Of a stretch of DNA of 20,737 nt, positions 598 to 15,987 are shown in pieces (the stretch's first letter is position 1; every line of letters begins with the position of its first letter). A program made the translations under genes and the position numbers. Below the pieces are notes generated by a model that was given only the letters and a program-made list of their open reading frames with translations, did no database searches and was not told where the DNA came from. The DNA is from Microcaldota archaeon. Its GTDB lineage: Archaea > Micrarchaeota > Micrarchaeia > Norongarragalinales > UBA8480. The stretch covers positions 1-20,737 of the forward strand of contig JAUYPK010000083.1 in the NCBI GenBank assembly GCA_030697615.1. Direction: 5' to 3'.

Positions 598-1965
598 ATG
601 GACATCGACATCCCCGAATGGAGTAAACTAGCTGAAATTGAGTGGAGTGGCCAGCCACTCGTGCTTTTACAACGCGATGATACCGTGTTGATGCTTTTGG
701 CAGAAAAAAGACTTGACCGGACAATTGGCTTTGCGTGTGCTGCTTGTAAGCCGTTTGTAGTGAAGGGCGACGCTGCGAAACTAGATTTAGTGAAATTTTC
801 AAACGAAGTTACTCTTGTCAAGAAACTCAACGCTTCTACGCCTGAATCTTTTCTACTTGCGTTCACCAAACCAAGCTACGTCCAGTTTTCACAAAACGCA
901 ATTTCACAAGCCGCGAACCTCCATGTAAAACAACTCCAAGAGTTAAACTACGAAGTGAAAAACATGGCTAGCGTAACGCTGGGAGAAGTTGAAAATGGCT
1001 CTAACCCGCTTTTGGGAGACCCGGCGTTGTTATTTTCATTTCTTTCAATGCTACGTTCAGCTGTTAAAGCGCCTGGCTTGCAAAGCGTAGTTGGGCTAAA
1101 TTTAGCTGGTGAAAAAGTATCGTGTTCAATTCCAAGTGTTTCGCTTGGCTTAACTGTTGGCGGGACAAAACCACAAAGAATGCATGTGCTTCACTTGCTT
1201 TGTGAAGAAGTGATGCAGCAAAATGGGACCGTAGTTGTTTTTGACACGAATAATAGTTTTGCAGGTTTATCGCGGCCAAGTGGAGCTGAACTTACAGAAT
1301 TCACTGCTTTTTCCATGCCTGGCTTAGCAGCTGGTTTTCCAGTGCATGAAGTTATTCCAGGCAAAAACGCTTTTGTTAAACTTTCCGAATTCACACCAGC
1401 TGCTTTAACCGCGCCGTTTGGGCTGACTGGAAGCGACATTGCGCCGTACGTTGAAAAAGCGTTTCAAAGCGGAAGTATGGAATTGTTGAACGAAGCTAAT
1501 GCGACTAATGGTTTAAATCAGTTTACCGCTTTGCGTGTTAACCGCGTTGTAAAAGTTATGCAGCAGTGTTTCCAAGGCGTTTTTGCAAGTAATTCCAACG
1601 TAGAATTTTCACATTCGCTTGGCAAAATGCTCCACATTAACCTGTCGAAATGTAGCGAAGAGGCAAAAGCGTTTTTTTCACTTGGGTTGTTAAAGCAGCT
1701 TGAAAAAAGTGAGGGGTCAATTTTCATCGTGTTTGAACAAGATGCAAAAGAGATAAAGACGCTTGTTGAATTTAGCGTGAATAAGTTTCTTGGTTCAAAC
1801 GTTTCAATCCTATGCCATTCCGAGGATGAAAATGACGTGCCTTTTGTTAACTCAGCTGATTTCTTTGTTGAAATTCTAGACAAAGACGTTGCAATCACAC
1901 TTGCCGGTAAGTCGCCGCAGCGCGTAAAGCTACGGCCAACTTATTCAGCGTGCAGCGAAAATTAA
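598..1965 (+). CDS. HerA/FtsK-like P-loop protein, probably ATPase-dead
   Basis: The 455-residue protein follows the HerA/FtsK-type ATPase layout. A degenerate P-loop lies at about 183-194 (LGLTVGGTKPQR): an extra Thr separates the last Gly from Lys, and Pro stands where Ser/Thr is required. After it come the helix MHVLHLLCEEVMQQNG and a strand ending VVVFDTNNSFAGL, in the place of the HerA 'VIDPHGEY' strand. A segment at about 344-370 (LHINLSKCSEEAKAFFSLGL) matches the HerA 'I.LS.L.EEAQ..' strand-helix, just before the Walker B position, here IFIVFEQ instead of hhhhDE. I infer fold homology with loss of ATP hydrolysis, so a regulatory or scaffold role is likely. The N-terminal 180 residues are not assigned. 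The start is set by the TATA box at 566. Its 3' end overlaps the convergent sigma-like gene by 21 bp. Confidence 0.6.
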   Translation: MDIDIPEWSKLAEIEWSGQPLVLLQRDDTVLMLLAEKRLDRTIGFACAACKPFVVKGDAAKLDLVKFSNEVTLVKKLNASTPESFLLAFTKPSYVQFSQNAISQAANLHVKQLQELNYEVKNMASVTLGEVENGSNPLLGDPALLFSFLSMLRSAVKAPGLQSVVGLNLAGEKVSCSIPSVSLGLTVGGTKPQRMHVLHLLCEEVMQQNGTVVVFDTNNSFAGLSRPSGAELTEFTAFSMPGLAAGFPVHEVIPGKNAFVKLSEFTPAALTAPFGLTGSDIAPYVEKAFQSGSMELLNEANATNGLNQFTALRVNRVVKVMQQCFQGVFASNSNVEFSHSLGKMLHINLSKCSEEAKAFFSLGLLKQLEKSEGSIFIVFEQDAKEIKTLVEFSVNKFLGSNVSILCHSEDENDVPFVNSADFFVEILDKDVAITLAGKSPQRVKLRPTYSACSEN

Positions 1966-2862
1966 CCGTTTACCTTTTGCCCTTAATTTTTGCTTTGCTT
2001 TTGTTTCAATTGCAGAAATAGCATTTGCCTTAATTCCAAATTCGCTTGACATTTGCCGCTGTGTTTTATCCATAACGTGACGTAAGGCGAGCATTGTAGC
2101 TTCATGTGCATCGATGATTCCAGTTGTGTGCCACCGGTGTATTATTTTCAATGCTTTTTGCACTTCTTTTTCGCCACTTTTACTTTCTTTTGCCACGTGT
2201 TTTTCTTCCTTTAGTGGAAAGGTTCTTTTATCGCGTTGGTTTTCCTTGTGCTTGCTTCTAATTGCGCTAGCTATTCTTGAACCTATTCTCAACCGTGCAT
2301 AGCCTTCAAATTCGTCCGGATGCATAGTTGTAGGGTCACGTATTTCAAGTGCGTCGGTTAAACCCTGTAGCCCTATGCTGTGTGCTTGTTGTGGCTCGAG
2401 AAATTTTGGCCAAGCACGTGCCATTTTTGGCCACGGAGTTTTGTTCCGAAGCACTTCTCCAATTAAGTGTATTCGCTCTTCAATTTCTCTTCTTGTTGCT
2501 TTTCTTATCCTCGGTAGCTTATCCATAGATAAAGTCAACAAACCACGTTTAGCGAGTGTCTGCATTTTATTTTCTATTATGCTTTTGCGTTTTTCTTGGG
2601 TCATTCCTCGAAATTCGTACATTCCTTTTAACCTTTCAGCTAGCTCCACTATGTTGTACTGGCTGCCTCTTCTGTGTCTAGGTGCATGTGCAAGAATAGC
2701 TAAGTGTAAAGGGGTAAGTGGGACTTCTGGCGGTTTAGGGTGTTGCTTTTGTGGTGGAAGCCTTGATGCCATTTCGTTAACGTGGCTTGAAAAACTCTGC
2801 AAAGTTGGATAGCGGTTTGTCCCTAACCGAGCTTCCAATTTTGCATACCAACCTTTTAACAT
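1945..2862 (-). CDS. Sigma-70-like protein (regions 2- and 4-like)
   Basis: The 305-residue basic protein carries two segments resembling bacterial sigma factors. Residues about 160-205 (AHSIGLQGLTDALEIRDP, then DEFEGYARLRIGSRIASAIR) follow the region 2 pattern 'IGLLRAVEKFDPERG..F.TYA...IR.AI..A'. Residues about 235-298 resemble region 4: an acidic/LAL helix, then a helix-turn-helix (TQRQMSSEFGIKANAISAIE) ending in ETKAKQKLR, like the sigma 'Ie.kAl.KLR'. Residues about 50-112 look like an extra winged-helix-type domain ending in KMQTLAKRGLL. A clear region 3 is absent. It starts 12 bp after the upstream gene's stop with GGAGAGTGA nearby, so the two genes are probably co-transcribed. Archaeal polymerase normally uses TBP/TFB, so the function is unknown; a mobile-element regulator is an alternative. 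Sigma-like proteins have, as I recall, been noted in some single-cell archaeal genomes. Confidence 0.6.
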   Translation of the reverse strand: MLKGWYAKLEARLGTNRYPTLQSFSSHVNEMASRLPPQKQHPKPPEVPLTPLHLAILAHAPRHRRGSQYNIVELAERLKGMYEFRGMTQEKRKSIIENKMQTLAKRGLLTLSMDKLPRIRKATRREIEERIHLIGEVLRNKTPWPKMARAWPKFLEPQQAHSIGLQGLTDALEIRDPTTMHPDEFEGYARLRIGSRIASAIRSKHKENQRDKRTFPLKEEKHVAKESKSGEKEVQKALKIIHRWHTTGIIDAHEATMLALRHVMDKTQRQMSSEFGIKANAISAIETKAKQKLRAKGKRLIFAAR

Positions 2863-2874
2863 GTTATTATAATT

Positions 2875-3516
2875 TCACTCTCCATTTCCGAGCGTTATTT
2901 TATGCCTAGCTCTTGATGCGAGGTTACTTATCCATGAATTACTTACTTTAAGTTCTCTTGCAATTTTCCACCTTTTGTGTCCCATTGCATCAAGTGCCAA
3001 TATGAGTGCCTCTCGTTTTGTAATTCGTCCAGCTTTATGGTGGTTTAAAAGCCCCTGCAATGCAACTGAAGGTAATAATGATTGCTGTGGCTCTGGTTCC
3101 ATGCGTTTATGTAATGTGATTAATTCACTTCTAAATTCAGTTAAATTTTTATAAGTGTCCGGAACTTGAGGCGGCCCGGGTTTGCGGTAAATGTTTGTTA
3201 AAAACGCAAGCGCTTGTTCGTGTACTCGCGGAATTCCAGTTCGCCCTGTTTTGAAGTGTTTTGATATTTGACTATGCGTGTATCCAATTGCTATTAGTGA
3301 ATGTATAATTGAGTGATGCGTCCCTGCACTTGGGTTACGTTGCAGTTCCTTAATTTCGCCCAGTAAAGTTTCTTTTTGATCTCTTCTCAATGCATATGGA
3401 GTTACGCCGTGGCTTTCAGCTATTTCGCGCCCAATTGCTTGAGCATGCGCTAAAACAGCGCCAGCTGTCCTAAATGTAATCCCTTCAAAACTCCGCCGTA
3501 AGTTACTCATCTGCAT
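2875..3516 (-). CDS. Helix-turn-helix protein with a sigma region 4-like C-terminus
   Basis: The 213-residue basic protein has two probable helix-turn-helix units. One lies at about 68-105 (IIHSLIAIGYTHSQISKHFK). The other is at about 167-207 (KREALILALDAMGHKRWKIA, then RELKVSNSWISNLASRARHK). The C-terminal unit aligns without gaps to that of the next gene: both read xEAxxLAL....K......E[LF]......IS.[LI]...A..K[IL], so the two domains are paralogous. No region 2-like segment is visible. The start is the ATG at 3516, with a TATA-like box (3537-3545) about 25 bp upstream; an ATG at 3510 is also possible. It is the first gene of the pair and is probably a DNA-binding partner or regulator of the sigma-like protein. 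It has no known family name that I can assign. Confidence 0.6.
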   Translation of the reverse strand: MQMSNLRRSFEGITFRTAGAVLAHAQAIGREIAESHGVTPYALRRDQKETLLGEIKELQRNPSAGTHHSIIHSLIAIGYTHSQISKHFKTGRTGIPRVHEQALAFLTNIYRKPGPPQVPDTYKNLTEFRSELITLHKRMEPEPQQSLLPSVALQGLLNHHKAGRITKREALILALDAMGHKRWKIARELKVSNSWISNLASRARHKITLGNGE

Positions 3517-3559: not shown

Positions 3560-3988
3560 TCATTCATCGTCTTTCTTTTTGCTTGCCGCTTTTTTCTTTT
3601 GTTGTTCCACTTTTTGTTCGAAGAGTTCGTTTACAAGTTCGTTGACTTGCCGCACTGTGACAAATTCCAGTGGGTTAATCAAACCTAGCGTGTATTTCAC
3701 GTTGTACACGTCGTTTTTAATCGCTTCATTTTCCTTCATTGCCTTTTCAAAAGTTTCTTTCAAAGCTTTGATCTCGCCGCTTTGTTCCATGTCTAAATGA
3801 GCTGCGCCTGTTCCGCCGCCGCTTTCCTCTATTTTTCGCAGCCTCTCGGTAAGTTTAAACAGCGAATTTGCAATTGTCACGTTTTGGGTTTCCAAGCGTT
3901 TGAGTTTTTCTGCAAGTAGGTTTACTTTGGAATCTACGCTTTTAATTTCTGCGCGCAACGCGTCAACAGCTCTAATTTCAACTGGCAT
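3560..3988 (-). CDS. Small coiled-coil protein of unknown function
   Basis: The 142-residue protein is mostly helical. A heptad-patterned coiled coil covers about residues 10-55 (for example SVDSKVNLLAEKLKRLETQN and LFKLTERLRKIEE). A Gly-rich break follows (SGGGTGAA), then a second helix (about 70-95). A conserved-looking patch TLGLINPLEFVTVRQVNELV lies at about 100-120, with a Lys/Glu tail after it. No enzymatic motif, signal peptide or membrane segment is visible. It is divergent from polB across 50 bp and lies upstream of the sigma-like pair on the same strand with a 43-bp gap. Cytoplasmic scaffold proteins such as archaellum FlaC/D/E subunits share this general look, but I cannot claim membership. 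Confidence 0.65.
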   Translation of the reverse strand: MPVEIRAVDALRAEIKSVDSKVNLLAEKLKRLETQNVTIANSLFKLTERLRKIEESGGGTGAAHLDMEQSGEIKALKETFEKAMKENEAIKNDVYNVKYTLGLINPLEFVTVRQVNELVNELFEQKVEQQKKKAASKKKDDE

Positions 3989-7740: not shown

Positions 7741-9195
7741 CTAAATCTTTTTCACAGTGCCTTTATCCGCGTCAACTTCAACCACGTCGCCGTCTTTTAG
7801 CATTTTTGTTGCGTTGCCTGTTCCAATGATGCATGGCAACCCGAGCTCTCGCGAGACAATTGCAGCGTGGCAAGTAATGCCGCCTTCATCTGTAACAATT
7901 GCACAAGCGCGTTTCATTGCAGGGACAAAAGTTGGAGTAGTGTTCTTTGCAACTAGTACGTCGCCTTGCTGCACTTTAGCCAGTTCGCTTACTTCGTTGA
8001 CAACTTTTACCGTTCCAATTGCCTTGCCTTTAACTGCAGCAACTCCTTTTACTTCTCCAGAATTTTTAATATGTTCGCGCTCTATGTGTAGGGATTTCAT
8101 TAGTGCTTCACTTTCACTCCCGTTAAGTACATACGCGTTTTGTCCACTTAGAAGAATAGTGCAGTTGCGCTGGCGGTCAGCGATTAACTTTTCATATTCC
8201 AGTTTTCCAGTGAGGCTAGCTTCAACTTCTTCAAATGTCAAGTATTTCACTTGGTTTAGTGCAATTCCTAGCTTCTTTGCAAGGTTTACAAAATGAGGTG
8301 CAGATGCTTTGTTTCCAAGTCCGAATAAACTCTCGCCGTAAATGCGCAAGTAAATTCCCTTTCTAAACAGTGCAATCAATTCAGGGTCAAGTGAATACTT
8401 TGCAATTACTTCGCCTGCTTTTTTGTCCACTTTTGCTTGAAACGCTTGTTTATCGCTAAGTTTTTGCTTGAGTGATTCGAGGGTTTCCCCAAGTAGCGGA
8501 TTATTTTCTTCCAGCCACGTTTCAAACGGTGGAATTGGGTCGTCCATGTAAAAATAAGCAAATCCAAACTCTTCGAAGTGGCGTTTTAACATTTCGTTAA
8601 CTTGTGCTTCGCTTGCATTACTTTCCTTTATTTTTATCACAATTTCCAGCAGGTTTAATTCCTGTTCGAATTGAAGCGTTGGCTTATGCGGAACCGCTAG
8701 TTCAATCATGTCACTCTCGTCGCTTACATTTTTCCCAATCTGCAACGCTAAGCTACTGCACACTTCTATAACTGAGCTTACTGCGGTGCATGCAATTTCG
8801 TGTTTTTTCATGAACTCTTTTAAGTATTGCAGTGAATCTTCGCTGCGGTGGCTTTTGCAGTAATTTCCAAAATCTTCGTAAGCGGTTTCAACTTTTTTCA
8901 ACATTTCCTCTATCTGGTTTTTTGATTGGAGTGACTCGCTTAGGTTTTTTCGCAGTTCTTCCATTTCGCTTTTAACCCGTAGCATCACCCAATCTCTTCC
9001 TTTTGAATTAACTAGTACGTGTTCAAACCTACTTCCGATAAACTGCGGATAAAGCACGGGGTAGTTAATCGTCAAGTGATAAAAGCCAAAGTAAAACGGT
9101 AAATTACGGCCAGCAAACTCAAACCAATTTACGTGAAGTGCATCTGGAGAATGTTGCTTCACGCTTTCAACAGTTGCAGGAGAATAGATTTTCAT
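7741..9195 (-). CDS. PEP-utilising swivelling (phosphohistidine) domain protein with an unassigned N-terminus
   Basis: The last 90 residues of this 484-residue protein are a PEP-utilising mobile domain. The phosphorylatable His (about 443) lies in GGITCHAAIVSRELGLP, the signature of PEP synthase, PPDK and Enzyme I, and the end is DGDVVEVDADKGTVKKI. The ATP-grasp domain and PEP/pyruvate TIM barrel of those enzymes are absent. Instead about 390 residues form a mainly helical region, with a coiled-coil-like stretch (SEMEELRKNLSESLQSKNQI). The His may be phosphorylated by an enzyme encoded elsewhere, or the unit may work as part of a PEP synthase-like complex. I chose ATG 9195; GTG 9204 is 26 bp from a TATA-like box (9226-9233) and is also possible. 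Confidence 0.75.
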   Translation of the reverse strand: MKIYSPATVESVKQHSPDALHVNWFEFAGRNLPFYFGFYHLTINYPVLYPQFIGSRFEHVLVNSKGRDWVMLRVKSEMEELRKNLSESLQSKNQIEEMLKKVETAYEDFGNYCKSHRSEDSLQYLKEFMKKHEIACTAVSSVIEVCSSLALQIGKNVSDESDMIELAVPHKPTLQFEQELNLLEIVIKIKESNASEAQVNEMLKRHFEEFGFAYFYMDDPIPPFETWLEENNPLLGETLESLKQKLSDKQAFQAKVDKKAGEVIAKYSLDPELIALFRKGIYLRIYGESLFGLGNKASAPHFVNLAKKLGIALNQVKYLTFEEVEASLTGKLEYEKLIADRQRNCTILLSGQNAYVLNGSESEALMKSLHIEREHIKNSGEVKGVAAVKGKAIGTVKVVNEVSELAKVQQGDVLVAKNTTPTFVPAMKRACAIVTDEGGITCHAAIVSRELGLPCIIGTGNATKMLKDGDVVEVDADKGTVKKI

Positions 9196-9225
9196 TTCAA
9201 ACACACTAATTCTTACTTTTTTGGT

Positions 9226-10292: not shown

Positions 10293-10312
10293 GTAGTGTT
10301 TTGCTTAACTTT

Positions 10313-12901
10313 ATGCAAAACATGAATAAACCATTTAACTTAGGTATTAACTTCAGTGTATTATTTTTATCCCTATTTGCATTGGTATTTTTAGCAGTGC
10401 CGGTAGTTGCTGCACCTGCGGCTTTTCCAGGCTGTGCTCCAAGTGGGCCAACTGTAGAATGTGTAATTTCATCTAACACAGTTATTTCTTCAGCGTTTAA
10501 CAATGATGTTTTCCAATATGGCCGACTTGTTATTGACCCGACGGTTAGCTTATCTTTTTCTCCAATTAGTGACATTTACCAAAACGGGAGTAACATAACT
10601 ATAATTGCACAGCGGATAGAAATCGCTGGCAACATCGCTGTAGATGCCGGTTCTGGTGTTAGTCCGTGGGTTTTAAACGGTGGAAATGGCGGTTCACTTA
10701 ACTTAATTGCTAAGCAAGGTCTTTTCACCGCAGTTGGAAGTCAATTAACTGCTAGAGGGGGCAATGGGTCAACTTCGGCTTGTTTAGCTGGAAACGGTGG
10801 CAGCGGTGGAAAGATTAGTTTACGTACAGTTCCAGGCGCATCAGTTTCACTTCTAGGTACTTATAATGTTTCAGGCGGGTTAGGTGCAACTCTACCAGTT
10901 GCGGATAATTGTACAACTGCAAACGGCACAAACGGAGCGCTAGGCGTTTTTGAAACAACTTCTTACACTCCTTCTGTTGTTGACTTTTTCCTAGCTGAAC
11001 CAGATGGCACGCCGGTTCCAATCCCAATAATTCCAGGTTTAATATACCTTCCAGTTGGCATTTTATCCGGAGCTAACCAAACAGTTGTTATAAACGCAGT
11101 TGACGAATTCAGCGACGCAATTGTACCAACAAGTTCAACTTGGACATCAAGTAACTCTTCAATTGCAACTATCATTCAGCTAAATTCAACTCACGTTCAA
11201 GTGGTTGGCCATTTAGTTGGAGATGCAAATATAACCGTAAGGATAAACGGGGTTGAGAAGAGTTTCACGGTTAACGTTGTACCGGGCGAACTTGATTATA
11301 TTACTGTAACTCCGCCTTCAAACACTTCGCTTGTTTACGGACAAATCGCCACGCTTAAAGTTAACGCTTTCGATGCAGCTGGAAATAGTATAATTCCAAA
11401 CACTTACCACAGCGAAATCGGTTTAATTAGTTTTGAAGTTGTCCAAGGTGCTTTGCTTGGAAACGTCTCTTCGTGTTTGTCAACTCCGTCTTGTAGGTTC
11501 GCAAACAGGACTGGCGGCTACCCGGTTACTTTCCAAGCTGCAAGTAAGCCAGGCGTTGCAACTCTGCGCATAACCCGAGGTTCGCAAGTTGTAGACACTA
11601 ACTTTACAATTTCAATGCCGCTTTTTGCAGTTGCGGCTATAAACTTACTTCCGTTAAATCCAACTGTTACTTCGGGTTCAAGTGTTAACTTTATTGTCAA
11701 CGGTTTAGACGCAGACGGCGACGAAGCTGCTTTTAATGCGAGTTCATGGAGCGTGGCAAACGTTACCGGAACTGCTAATATTAATTCCAACGGCACGCTA
11801 ATCGCAGGGCTGCCTGGATCCGTGACTGTAAGCGCTACTTTGAATGGGTTAGTTAATTCAACAAACGTAGTTATAGTGCTTGGACAAGCTAATCACTTTG
11901 CTATAAATGGACCAACAACTGTGGTTGCTGGTCAGGCAATTGCATTTACCGCGTTGCTTCAAGATCAAGGCAACAACAATTTATCCGCTTACAATGGACA
12001 AGTTCCACAAGTAGTTTGGTCAACGTCAAGCGGCACAATTTACCCCAACGCTACGCTAGTTGCAACAACTGCTGGAAGCGTAACTGTAACAGCTACGTTA
12101 TTACAAAACCCAGCTGTACGTGGCACTTACGTTGTTTTAGTAACTCCGGGAGATGTTGTTGGGCTTGGAGTTGCAGAAAGCGGTTCGGGAATACAAGTTG
12201 GCAACACTTATGTATTAACCGCAAGTTTAGTTGACAAGTATGGAAACCGCGTTGCTGACACCGATGCAACTTGGACGATTCTAAACGCAACTGGAACCGC
12301 GACGCTTAGCGGCAGGTTAATTACCCCTACAAAAGTTGGCTACGTTACCGTGTACGCTGTTTCACTTACAAACCCAGCTTTAACTGCAACTGGCGTATTT
12401 ACAATAACTGCCGGCCAGCCAACTTCAATAACAATTGCGCCTCCATCTGCATCAATTAGGCCAGGAAACATAGTTACGTTTTCAATTCAGGCACACGATG
12501 CTTTTGGCAACAGCTACGTTTACCAAAATACAAACGCTTCGTGGGTGGTTTCAAACACTGGAATAGCGGTAATTTCAAACAATGGTATCCTAACCGCCCT
12601 TGGTCCGGGGTCAGTAACCGTAACTGCAACTATTGGTTTAGTTTCAAAGTCAGTTACAGTAACTGTGCTTGAATCACTTGACAGGCAAGCTCAAGTTGCT
12701 GCAGGGTTTTCAACTCAACTTGCAACAACCACTGTTCCTGGACAGCAACCGCGTGTTTCAATTAACACTGGCACTGCAAGCGGCACTGGTTTGTTAAGCG
12801 GCTTCTTCACAGCTGGAGCAGACAGCGACATGCTTCTACTTGGCGCACTTGCACTTCTCCTTGTAGGTATGGTTGCCTATTGGATAAGCGGAAGAAGCTA
12901 A
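10313..12901 (+). CDS. Large secreted surface protein with Ig-like (Big) repeats
   Basis: The 862-residue protein is exported and probably anchored. The N-terminus has a classic signal peptide (about 1-34, hydrophobic FSVLFLSLFALVFLAVPVVA ending in Ala-Ala). A Gly/Asn-rich region (about 40-225, repeats such as GGNGGSLNLIA and GGNGSTSACLAGNGGSGGK) looks like a right-handed beta-helix. From about 235 to 795 there are roughly five or six bacterial Ig-like (Big_2-type) modules, each with a 'W..SN...A.I..NG.L.A...G..TVTA' signature. A C-terminal helix (MLLLGALALLLVGMVAYWIS) ends in a short basic tail. Many N-x-S/T sequons imply N-glycosylation. An adhesin or S-layer-associated role is inferred. 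ATG 10313 is set by the TATA box. Confidence 0.85.
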   Translation: MQNMNKPFNLGINFSVLFLSLFALVFLAVPVVAAPAAFPGCAPSGPTVECVISSNTVISSAFNNDVFQYGRLVIDPTVSLSFSPISDIYQNGSNITIIAQRIEIAGNIAVDAGSGVSPWVLNGGNGGSLNLIAKQGLFTAVGSQLTARGGNGSTSACLAGNGGSGGKISLRTVPGASVSLLGTYNVSGGLGATLPVADNCTTANGTNGALGVFETTSYTPSVVDFFLAEPDGTPVPIPIIPGLIYLPVGILSGANQTVVINAVDEFSDAIVPTSSTWTSSNSSIATIIQLNSTHVQVVGHLVGDANITVRINGVEKSFTVNVVPGELDYITVTPPSNTSLVYGQIATLKVNAFDAAGNSIIPNTYHSEIGLISFEVVQGALLGNVSSCLSTPSCRFANRTGGYPVTFQAASKPGVATLRITRGSQVVDTNFTISMPLFAVAAINLLPLNPTVTSGSSVNFIVNGLDADGDEAAFNASSWSVANVTGTANINSNGTLIAGLPGSVTVSATLNGLVNSTNVVIVLGQANHFAINGPTTVVAGQAIAFTALLQDQGNNNLSAYNGQVPQVVWSTSSGTIYPNATLVATTAGSVTVTATLLQNPAVRGTYVVLVTPGDVVGLGVAESGSGIQVGNTYVLTASLVDKYGNRVADTDATWTILNATGTATLSGRLITPTKVGYVTVYAVSLTNPALTATGVFTITAGQPTSITIAPPSASIRPGNIVTFSIQAHDAFGNSYVYQNTNASWVVSNTGIAVISNNGILTALGPGSVTVTATIGLVSKSVTVTVLESLDRQAQVAAGFSTQLATTTVPGQQPRVSINTGTASGTGLLSGFFTAGADSDMLLLGALALLLVGMVAYWISGRS

Positions 12902-14143: not shown

Positions 14144-15262
14144 TCATCCGAACGTAAACGTGTAGAGCTTAAACCCTTTTCCAGCAACGTCAATTGTAAT
14201 CTTCTGTGGCTTGTAAGTGTCCTTATTCACTAAACTATAAAGTCGCTCGTTGCCAGTATGTACTGTTGCTGTATTGTTTACAACTTGAGCATCAAACCCA
14301 GTGCTGTTTTGTTGCAACTGCACTTCGTCGAGTAAAATTTCAAGCGTAGCGTTTCCACCCGCTACTATGTTTAAGTTTTTTGCCTGAAATATAAGCACAA
14401 CTTTTCCAGTGTCAGAAACTAGTTCCATGTTATCTGGGTTATTTTTCCAACTTCCGTTAAAATAAACTAAACTTGTCCAAGTTACATTTGGAAGTGAATA
14501 GTTCACCACTTGACCATTTTGAAAACCTTCGATGTTGCCAAGTGGAGTCCTAGCAAACTGATGGCCTAAGTATATTTCGCTTGAACCTAGCTTAGTGTTA
14601 TCCACTTGTGGTGAAGATATGCTTGGCGAAATTAAGTTGCCCATTTCAATGGAGGTATTGCGCTCAATAAGCAGCTTTTGGATTTCTTCTTCTATTTCTG
14701 CATAATTTCCTTCCCCAATATGGTCATAGCGGATAAAACCATTTATGTCAATTAAATAGTGGCGTGGCCAGTAGCGATTTTGATAAGCGTTCCAAGTGCC
14801 GTGGTCATTGTCCAGCACAACTGGATAAGTTAAGTTAAACTTTTCAACTGCCATTTGTACGTTGGTGTAATTTTTTTCAAATTCAAATTCTGGTGAATGA
14901 ACTCCGAGTATTACGAGCCCTTGATTTTTGTATTTCTCATACCAGCCTTCAAGATACGGTAGTGTTCGTATGCAGTTTATGCACGAATAAGTCCAGAAGT
15001 CAAGCAGAACTACTTTGCCTCGCAGATCAGTTAATTTCAACCCTTTTGGTGCATTAATGTAATAATTATCAATGCCAACTAATTCAGGCGCTTTTTGTAA
15101 CAGTGAGTTTTGTTGAGGGTCAGCATCTAAACTAGGATTGTAATTGTTATAGTTGTTGTTTGTGCTTACTTGCGCTTTGAAAGACTGCACGTAAAAAATA
15201 GCTGCAGCTATAACCACTATTGCTATTGCCAAGGTTATTGGGCTACTTAATTTAATGTTCAT
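14144..15262 (-). CDS. Membrane-anchored thioredoxin-like protein, DipZ C-terminal type
   Basis: The 372-residue protein has an N-terminal anchor (about 8-27) and an Asn-rich linker, then an AhpC/TlpA-type redoxin domain (about 60-205). The active site is CINC (C94/C97) in FWTYSCINCIRTLPYL, exactly the context of the DipZ redoxin. NRYWPRHYLIDINGFIRYDH supplies the cis-Pro side. Residues about 225-372 form a beta-rich domain (LGHQFARTPLGNIEGFQ) matching the carbohydrate-module-like C-terminus of mycobacterial DipZ. It acts outside the membrane, reducing disulfides or peroxides. It starts 14 bp after the ccdA stop, so the pair is a split version of the fused DipZ protein. Substrates are unknown. 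Confidence 0.88.
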   Translation of the reverse strand: MNIKLSSPITLAIAIVVIAAAIFYVQSFKAQVSTNNNYNNYNPSLDADPQQNSLLQKAPELVGIDNYYINAPKGLKLTDLRGKVVLLDFWTYSCINCIRTLPYLEGWYEKYKNQGLVILGVHSPEFEFEKNYTNVQMAVEKFNLTYPVVLDNDHGTWNAYQNRYWPRHYLIDINGFIRYDHIGEGNYAEIEEEIQKLLIERNTSIEMGNLISPSISSPQVDNTKLGSSEIYLGHQFARTPLGNIEGFQNGQVVNYSLPNVTWTSLVYFNGSWKNNPDNMELVSDTGKVVLIFQAKNLNIVAGGNATLEILLDEVQLQQNSTGFDAQVVNNTATVHTGNERLYSLVNKDTYKPQKITIDVAGKGFKLYTFTFG

Positions 15263-15276
15263 GTTTTAATTCAATT

Positions 15277-15987
15277 TCATTTTGGTATAAAGTTTTCCAA
15301 TGGGAAAAGGCTAGCTATGAGCGGCAACGTACCTGTGAAAACTAATATCCCTAATATTACCAGTACAATGCCAAAAACTACGTTTAGCCACTTGAGATGA
15401 TTTGCAAGTAGTTTAATTAATTTGGCCGACCGCGAAGCAAACAGTCCAACAAGCAGAAATGGAATTCCAAGCCCAAGCGAATAGCTAAGCATAAGCGGCA
15501 ATGCTGATGCGGGGTTAGTGATTGCTAATGTAAGTATTCCTCCAAGCACTGCGCCTACGCATGGAGTCCACCCAACTGCAAATGCCGCACCGAACAAAAA
15601 CGAAGTTACGTATGAAACTTTGGTTTGCTTTACAGTTAGCTTGTGTTCTGATTCAAGCGCGTCTATTCTAATTATTTTCATTAACATTAAGCCAAAAATA
15701 ATAAGTATTATTCCGCCAACGTACCCGAGATAAGTTTGAACTTCATACGCCACGTTTGACAAAACACTTTGCAGCAACACGCCGATTATTGAAAATATAA
15801 TTGAAAAACCAAGCACGAAAAAGACGCTGTTTAGAAATATTTCACTCCTCATTTTAATTGAATATGCTTCTTTGACAGTTGTACCAGCTAAGAAAGTTAG
15901 ATAAGCTGGTATGAGTGGCAAAACGCAGGGGCTGAGGAAAGAAACTAAACCTGCAAAAAACGCAACCAAAAAAGACAATTCAGCCAT
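15277..15987 (-). CDS. ccdA: CcdA-type membrane electron transporter
   Basis: It carries reducing equivalents from cytoplasmic thioredoxin across the membrane. The 236-residue, six-helix protein matches the CcdA/DsbD-gamma family. The two redox cysteines are C21 in SFLSPCVLPLIPAY and C143 in GWTPCVGAVLGG, the standard positions in helices 1 and 4. Each sits beside the conserved prolines. It is followed directly by the extracytoplasmic redoxin, which is its likely acceptor. A TATA-like stretch (TTTTTATAAAA, about 16000-16010 on the minus strand) lies between the gene and the upstream tRNA. Confidence 0.95.
   Translation of the reverse strand: MAELSFLVAFFAGLVSFLSPCVLPLIPAYLTFLAGTTVKEAYSIKMRSEIFLNSVFFVLGFSIIFSIIGVLLQSVLSNVAYEVQTYLGYVGGIILIIFGLMLMKIIRIDALESEHKLTVKQTKVSYVTSFLFGAAFAVGWTPCVGAVLGGILTLAITNPASALPLMLSYSLGLGIPFLLVGLFASRSAKLIKLLANHLKWLNVVFGIVLVILGILVFTGTLPLIASLFPLENFIPK

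Follow-up and report, generated by a model that had tools for sequence, protein, structure and literature searches.

Bacteria depend on a sigma factor to tell where genes start, and archaea normally use other proteins, archaeal transcription being started by TBP and TFB. Rinke et al. reportedly found the first archaeal sigma factors in 2013. What, then, are two adjacent proteins with sigma-70-like domains doing in an archaeal genome? Contig JAUYPK010000083.1 of assembly GCA_030697615.1 (Microcaldota archaeon), analyzed over its 20,737 nucleotides and called the window here, carries on the minus strand an open reading frame (ORF) for a 305-amino-acid (aa) protein at positions 1945-2862 and, 12 bp apart, an ORF for a 213-aa protein (the partner) at positions 2875-3516. 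A first-pass annotation of the DNA alone placed both ORFs at these positions, assumed an archaeal (DPANN) host, which the micrarchaeal genome bears out, and proposed an unusual initiation or promoter-selection system or, alternatively, the regulator of an integrated element. We propose, with a probability of about 0.6, that the 305-aa protein belongs to a private family of DNA-binding regulators, strongly diverged and derived from sigma-70, that arose from a single micrarchaeal expansion.

The sigma-70 homology of the 305-aa protein is firm because of evidence at the level of the family, the single-sequence scores falling short. The recovered host genome (G000; 843,168 bases) encodes paralogs that we name by their length in amino acids: F489 on contig C128, F280 on C76, F287 on C86, F289 on C95 and F345 on C135. 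The 305-aa protein obtained 120.8 bits from a four-paralog profile to which it did not contribute, and the best of 2000 shuffled sequences (1000 per window protein) reached 8.2 bits. Profile A2, which contains the 305-aa protein and excludes the partner, found, among 5.8 billion proteins, ones that bear Pfam domains of primary sigma factors (E about 1e-9), the organisms of these matches not being given. Profile A4, to which two further micrarchaeal sigma fragments contribute, matched 80 PDB sequences at E ≤ 0.01, and the best 60 are all sigma factors (top E = 2.1e-15). Aligned by hhalign with presumed bacterial sigma factors, whose organisms are not stated by the source search, the family gave a probability of 98.2 (E = 4e-14), for region 2 alone. 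Furthermore, residues 123-206 of the AlphaFold model superpose at 1.9 Å over 73 residues on domain 2 of Taq sigmaA (PDB 3ugo), and 49 of the 50 structure matches listed for this bundle are sigma or RNA polymerase-complex entries, the other being an epitope scaffold (3les); Foldseek by itself found nothing at E ≤ 0.001 in the PDB or among viral models. TFIIB (PF00382) matched neither window protein at E ≤ 1. The 305-aa protein is a strongly diverged sigma-70-type protein, and the homology to region 2 that the first-pass annotation had read in it is upheld by the paralog profiles and the sigma2 bundle of the model, that to region 4 being probable.

It is very improbable that these are generic helix-turn-helix (HTH) proteins with a sigma look acquired by chance. 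Such a view would suit the single-sequence Pfam matches, namely weak r4 or HTH matches for the 305-aa protein and GerE for the partner, but the region 2 fold and the profile evidence contradict it. The outcome was not one of generic HTH matches with the sigma2 bundle lacking, which was the result that the first-pass annotation regarded as fatal to its proposal, and for the 305-aa protein the generic view is refuted. For the C-terminus of the partner taken alone, a generic HTH is possible, since it matches PDB 8hno, an archaeal transcription factor, and sigma4 equally well.

From its N-terminus, the 305-aa protein consists of a family motif, a winged-helix-like segment, the sigma2 bundle, a linker and a sigma4-like HTH. 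The motif (positions 2743-2862), in which His27 is invariant across the family, was recovered at E = 5.3e-15 in a search of the host genome with alignment A7, which contains the protein. The following segment (residues about 48-118, positions 2509-2721) has helices and two short strands in the secondary structure of the model and fits the winged-helix-like N-terminal addition that had been predicted. The sigma2 bundle (positions 2245-2496) was modelled with a predicted local distance difference test score (pLDDT) of 91-96 by block, except for residues 141-150 (71) and 201-210 (75). The region 4-like HTH (residues about 230-297, positions 1972-2175) matches a PHROG sigma family at E = 1.1e-4 and was modelled as confident helices, with a pLDDT of 82-90 at residues 231-290 and 64 at residues 291-300.

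How private is the family? The observation goes beyond the pair first noted: seven host proteins, six with region 2 plus the partner, carry the common N-terminal motif with its one invariant histidine, and these members are spread over six contigs. The motif search found 8 places in the host genome, two of them inside F489 (E from 3e-19 to 1e-10). Four paralogs are 21-29% identical to the 305-aa protein. The TIGR02937 cut-off (42.9 bits) is passed by two of the six region-2 members, F489 (46.1 bits; also Sigma70_r2, 27.8 bits, cut-off 24) and F345 (48.6 bits), and F280 (27.7 bits) and F289 (19.3 bits) are below it. A tree of 48 rows has the six members with region 2, and nothing else, on one side of a branch with a Shimodaira-Hasegawa-like approximate likelihood ratio test (SH-aLRT) value of 99, and these members appear, on this tree, to derive from a single expansion. 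The tree was a quick one with long-branch warnings. It left out the near copies P0004, P0005, P0007 and P0012, one duplicate each from the genomes G087 and G161, and the partner, and never included two ORFs of the G064 array and a 579-aa ORF of G087 (both described below) or many other sigma matches; its 35 rows labelled as micrarchaeal include a host protein from contig C39 and the loci L195 and L196, recorded as Woesearchaeota/Nanoarchaeota. The C39 protein (L067:571-1929, minus strand; 452 aa) lies outside the family: homing-endonuclease-associated repeats come before sigma region 2 and a stretch resembling region 3, Pfam gives no region 4 match in it, and it is without the N-terminal motif of the family.

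Codon use is coding-like for both window ORFs, with all five other frames negative. The eight sigma-type genes of the host, including the partner, score 0.12-0.18 per codon, again with negative values in the other frames, and the 14 other genes of the window resemble them (0.12-0.30 per codon). Six intact sigma2 proteins, the partner and a further sigma-type protein in a recovered genome of 0.84 Mb are hard to explain unless they are functional.

Whether they function as sigma factors is another question. We take Q406-E407 of the Escherichia coli sigma factor to be the pair in region 2.2 that contacts the core RNA polymerase, and W433-W434 to be the promoter-melting aromatics, present in the primary type only; to our knowledge, sigma factors of the extracytoplasmic function (ECF) type are also without the latter pair. 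When columns were anchored by hand on the common G408/L412 frame, the 305-aa protein had Q in place of D403, S in place of Q406, I in place of E407 and L in place of N409. The Q406-E407 pair is present in all seven presumed bacterial rows listed and in none of the six family members, one of which (F287) has the Q by itself; each member has I, L or A at position 407. W433 occurs in no member and W434 in one, so that the tryptophan pair is also absent from all six; Y430 is kept in four. The role of the pair as an initiation or promoter-selection system, which the first-pass annotation had offered, is hypothetical. TFB (on C117) and an ordinary archaeal Rpo1 (on C145) are encoded in the host genome. 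Because the contact and melting pairs are gone and the usual machinery is present, sigma-derived DNA-binding regulators appear, from the residues compared, better supported than working sigma factors.

A true alternative initiation factor is possible, though we consider it unlikely: the sigma2-sigma4 proteins would dock on the clamp and flap of the archaeal polymerase, recognize their own promoters in parallel to TFB, and owe their altered residues to adaptation to the clamp. The complete sigma2-sigma4 layout, the sigma-like fold and the several paralogs, as alternative specificities would predict, suit this explanation, as does Q406, which is kept in other micrarchaeal sigma-like proteins (e.g. 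of G005, G026, G020, G047 and G061) and in the C39 protein of the host, which retains the whole Q-E pair. However, both residue pairs are missing from the family, and the clamp coil of Rpo1 is alike, by eye, in the host and in the same-genus genome G001, in which no family member was found; therefore, no co-change is visible there.

For the DNA-binding regulators that we prefer, one possible mechanism is that each copy would recognize its own promoter-proximal DNA through the HTH-like parts and the sigma2 surface and would act as a gene-specific transcription regulator alongside the normal TFB machinery. The polymerase might be contacted weakly, or by residues other than those of bacterial sigma factors; docking by another surface is possible.

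Several observations weigh against this preference. By itself, the 305-aa protein reaches none of the curated cut-offs (TIGR02937 for sigma70-ECF, 40.3 bits, E = 2.4e-10, residues 165-295; Pfam Sigma70_r4, 22.3 bits, cut-off 24.1, E = 9.3e-5), has no match to Pfam Sigma70_r2 at E ≤ 1, and obtains 2 bits from a region 2 profile of the presumed bacterial sigma factors; the window locus is not among the Sigma70_r2 matches of the host, which lie on C39, C128 and C135. F287 has no NCBIfam match at E ≤ 0.1 and no Pfam match at E ≤ 1. The partner was modelled poorly (mean pLDDT 57.7), and the LuxR-type GerE family matches its HTH above the cut-off. The columns for the contact and melting residues were set by hand, and the loss of these residues might just as well reflect re-adaptation to the clamp of an archaeal polymerase. 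Furthermore, a more ordinary type of sigma may act in the same cell, since the C39 protein retains Q-E. Finally, the completeness of the host genome is only 71.6%, and its sequence is split into 153 contigs.

The partner (positions 2875-3516) consists of the N-terminal family motif (positions 3406-3516; motif search E = 1.2e-15 with A7, which contains the partner), a first HTH-like segment and a sigma4/LuxR/Tfx-like C-terminal HTH (residues about 150-212, positions 2881-3069), and is without region 2, as had been predicted. The first-pass annotation called its C-terminal domain clearly related to that of the 305-aa protein. Through profiles the relationship holds: the partner is matched by profile A2 at E = 2.2e-10, receives 35.4 bits from the four-paralog profile (shuffles ≤ 8.2), and in BLASTP matches residues 4-131 of F489 at E = 9e-7, the sigma4 end of F489 also matching in the same comparison (E = 6e-5). 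For the pair in the window, however, the wording is too strong, because direct BLASTP of the 305-aa protein against the partner found no match (best E 1.2). The GerE match (PF00196, 24.1 bits, cut-off 23.5, residues 166-209) concerns the HTH alone, and TIGR00721 (Tfx; 21.8 bits, cut-off 60.25) is not reached. The profile links identify the partner as a region-2-less relative of the sigma family. The two window proteins probably work together, the partner being a co-binding or modulating subunit, since the N-terminal half of the partner recurs in F489 alongside sigma2 and sigma4.

When did the pair arrive at this locus? In the relatives G001, G005 and G003, the sigma pair is absent at the same locus, and the order of the genes for a 181-aa protein, a 471-aa protein, a coiled-coil protein and DNA polymerase B (polB) is kept. 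Where the host has the pair, G001 has a 165-aa ORF (L081:2805-3302, minus strand) with no Pfam or PHROG match at E ≤ 0.01, and in G005 and G003 about 285-325 bases separate the aligned neighbouring stretches. Judging from this comparison, the simplest reading would be gain of the pair in the host lineage, with loss in the relatives as the alternative.

It is improbable that a virus, a plasmid or another mobile element carries the sigma genes as cargo or as its regulators. The absence of the pair from three relatives with conserved gene order, and the fact that phages do carry sigma factors, would agree with such an origin, which the first-pass annotation had offered in the form of an integrated element. 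However, the seven members lie on six contigs among neighbours of chromosomal appearance, judged by eye and with the surroundings of the copies not searched for repeats or integrases, and their codon use is close to that of neighbouring genes. A scan of viral contigs with the 305-aa protein, plasmids not being searched, found no relative. A phage search with F489 gave 44 partial records, all below 60% identity and none covering 80%, the top one covering 42% of F489 at 27.5% identity.

Nor is it at all probable, and here the chance seems smallest, that the sigma contigs came from a bacterium by misbinning. The bin is fragmented, as its contig number shows, but an archaeal polB lies on the same contig as the pair, with 73% identity to that of the same-genus genome G001 (54% to that of G005, of the same family) and within conserved gene order; its best matches are Ca. 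Micrarchaeota records (71% to nzgw33 and 53% to Sv246). The stated contamination is 0.26%, and no relative over the full length turned up elsewhere in the protein search, each window protein retrieving itself alone among the 5.8 billion proteins. Bacterial contamination was ruled out for the window copy by the polB identity and gene order; for the five other contigs the judgement was by eye.

The 305-aa protein as query found a match in one of 60 related genomes, the host itself, and the family profile matched 11 of 147 genomes at E ≤ 0.01, the ten others than the host weakly (best 1e-8). The N-terminal motif had no convincing match in six other genomes of the host's family: two matches in G003 are weak, and those in G001 (E = 0.046) and G002 (E = 0.011) were dropped, the ORFs being thymidylate synthase-like by eye. 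Sigma-type proteins as such are more widespread. Because loose TIGR02937 matches arise in every one of the 14 control genomes, the archaeal ones among them, cut-off matches or Sigma70_r2 were used for counts. Among the 301 genomes of the class, 35 have a Sigma70_r2 match above the cut-off, as do all ten bacterial controls and none of the four archaeal ones. In the same family, one protein of G005 passes region 2 and resembles a primary sigma factor, and one of G003 is above the Sigma70_r2 cut-off; the same-genus genomes G001 and G002 have marginal TIGR02937 matches (8.2e-4 and 0.001) and no Sigma70_r2 match. In a subset of 32 genomes, hand-picked from 80 loci with archaeal names, seven pass Sigma70_r2 (Woesearchaeota 5, Nanoarchaeota 1, Nanoarchaeia 1), and none of the seven with Methanofastidiosum, Theionarchaea, Euryarchaeota or Hydrothermarchaeota loci does. 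Some Sigma70_r2 matches, above all short ECF-like ones, may be contamination.

Other Micrarchaeota have sigma-like gene groups of their own. G064 has seven tandem, diverged sigma-like ORFs of 304-361 aa (L073:3853-11137, on C13), flanked by genes that resemble DUF498 and aconitase X by eye. TIGR02937 matches six of these at E ≤ 0.001, and one of the six exceeds the cut-off; the seventh (L073 6757-7788) has a weak RpoD match alone (E = 0.009). G087 (L074) has three sigma-like ORFs in a similar place, one of which (579 aa) looks like two units, and three sigma-like genes of G195 group together (99 in the tree). As a separate observation, micrarchaeal sigma-like proteins of 417-698 aa at L049, L046, L058 and L011 have long N-termini that are repeat-like by eye.

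With the bacterial sigma-70 family (TIGR02937; Pfam Sigma70_r2/r4), the present family shares the sigma2 fold, the order of sigma2 and then a C-terminal HTH, and profile-level homology, but it differs in its private N-terminal motif, its winged-helix-like segment, its loss of the presumed contact and melting pairs, and its TFB-bearing archaeal host. The C-terminal HTH of the partner is like those of Tfx-like and LuxR-type regulators (TIGR00721, PF00196, PDB 8hno), whereas its family motif and its match to the sigma family profile are not. The sigma part of MzaA, the sigma of the MZA defence system, matches F489 at 7.6e-9, but the match is confined to the sigma2 stretch, and in PADLOC neither window protein has a match at E ≤ 0.01. 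Archaeal sigma-70 genes are already in print: their first description is credited to Rinke et al. 2013 (PMC6126073, in the part available), and, in the accessible part of their report, Castelle et al. 2021 (PMC8204110) noted sigma-70 genes in DPANN, especially prevalent in Woesearchaeota, whose control is unknown. These sigma-70 homologs, too, belong to small archaea with a TFB of their own, but the accessible text names Woesearchaeota and describes no private multi-copy family, region-2-less partner or lost contacts. The present private multi-copy family was not found in print; the literature searches, whose coverage excludes most subscription papers, showed no description of it.

On the minus strand, the gene of a 142-aa protein comes first, 43 bp ahead of the partner gene, and 12 bp separate the latter from the 305-aa gene. 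The 142-aa protein (positions 3560-3988) is a probable coiled-coil protein that is kept in relatives and lies outside the sigma family; its gene is possibly the first of the transcription unit. The 305-aa gene and the convergent 471-aa gene share 21 bp where the latter ends. Elsewhere in the window, a thioredoxin-like protein (Thioredoxin_10 domain) adjoins a DsbD-type membrane protein (positions 14144-15987), likely an exported disulfide relay; an 866-aa protein (positions 10301-12901) has a group 2 immunoglobulin-like domain and, by eye, a probable C-terminal membrane anchor; and in a 487-aa protein (positions 7741-9204) Pfam recognizes a phosphoenolpyruvate-utilizer mobile domain at the C-terminus alone.

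The family poses a testable question, namely whether a sigma fold was refitted to the archaeal polymerase or turned into ordinary DNA-binding regulators. The sigma-like gene groups in other micrarchaeal families, such as the seven-gene array of G064 and the three genes of G195, suggest a recurrent process. It is conceivable, although we hold it doubtful, that some Micrarchaeota converted bacterial sigma factors into a second layer of promoter selection, working in parallel on the archaeal RNA polymerase, with a new docking surface, many specificities per cell and repeated lineage-private expansions.

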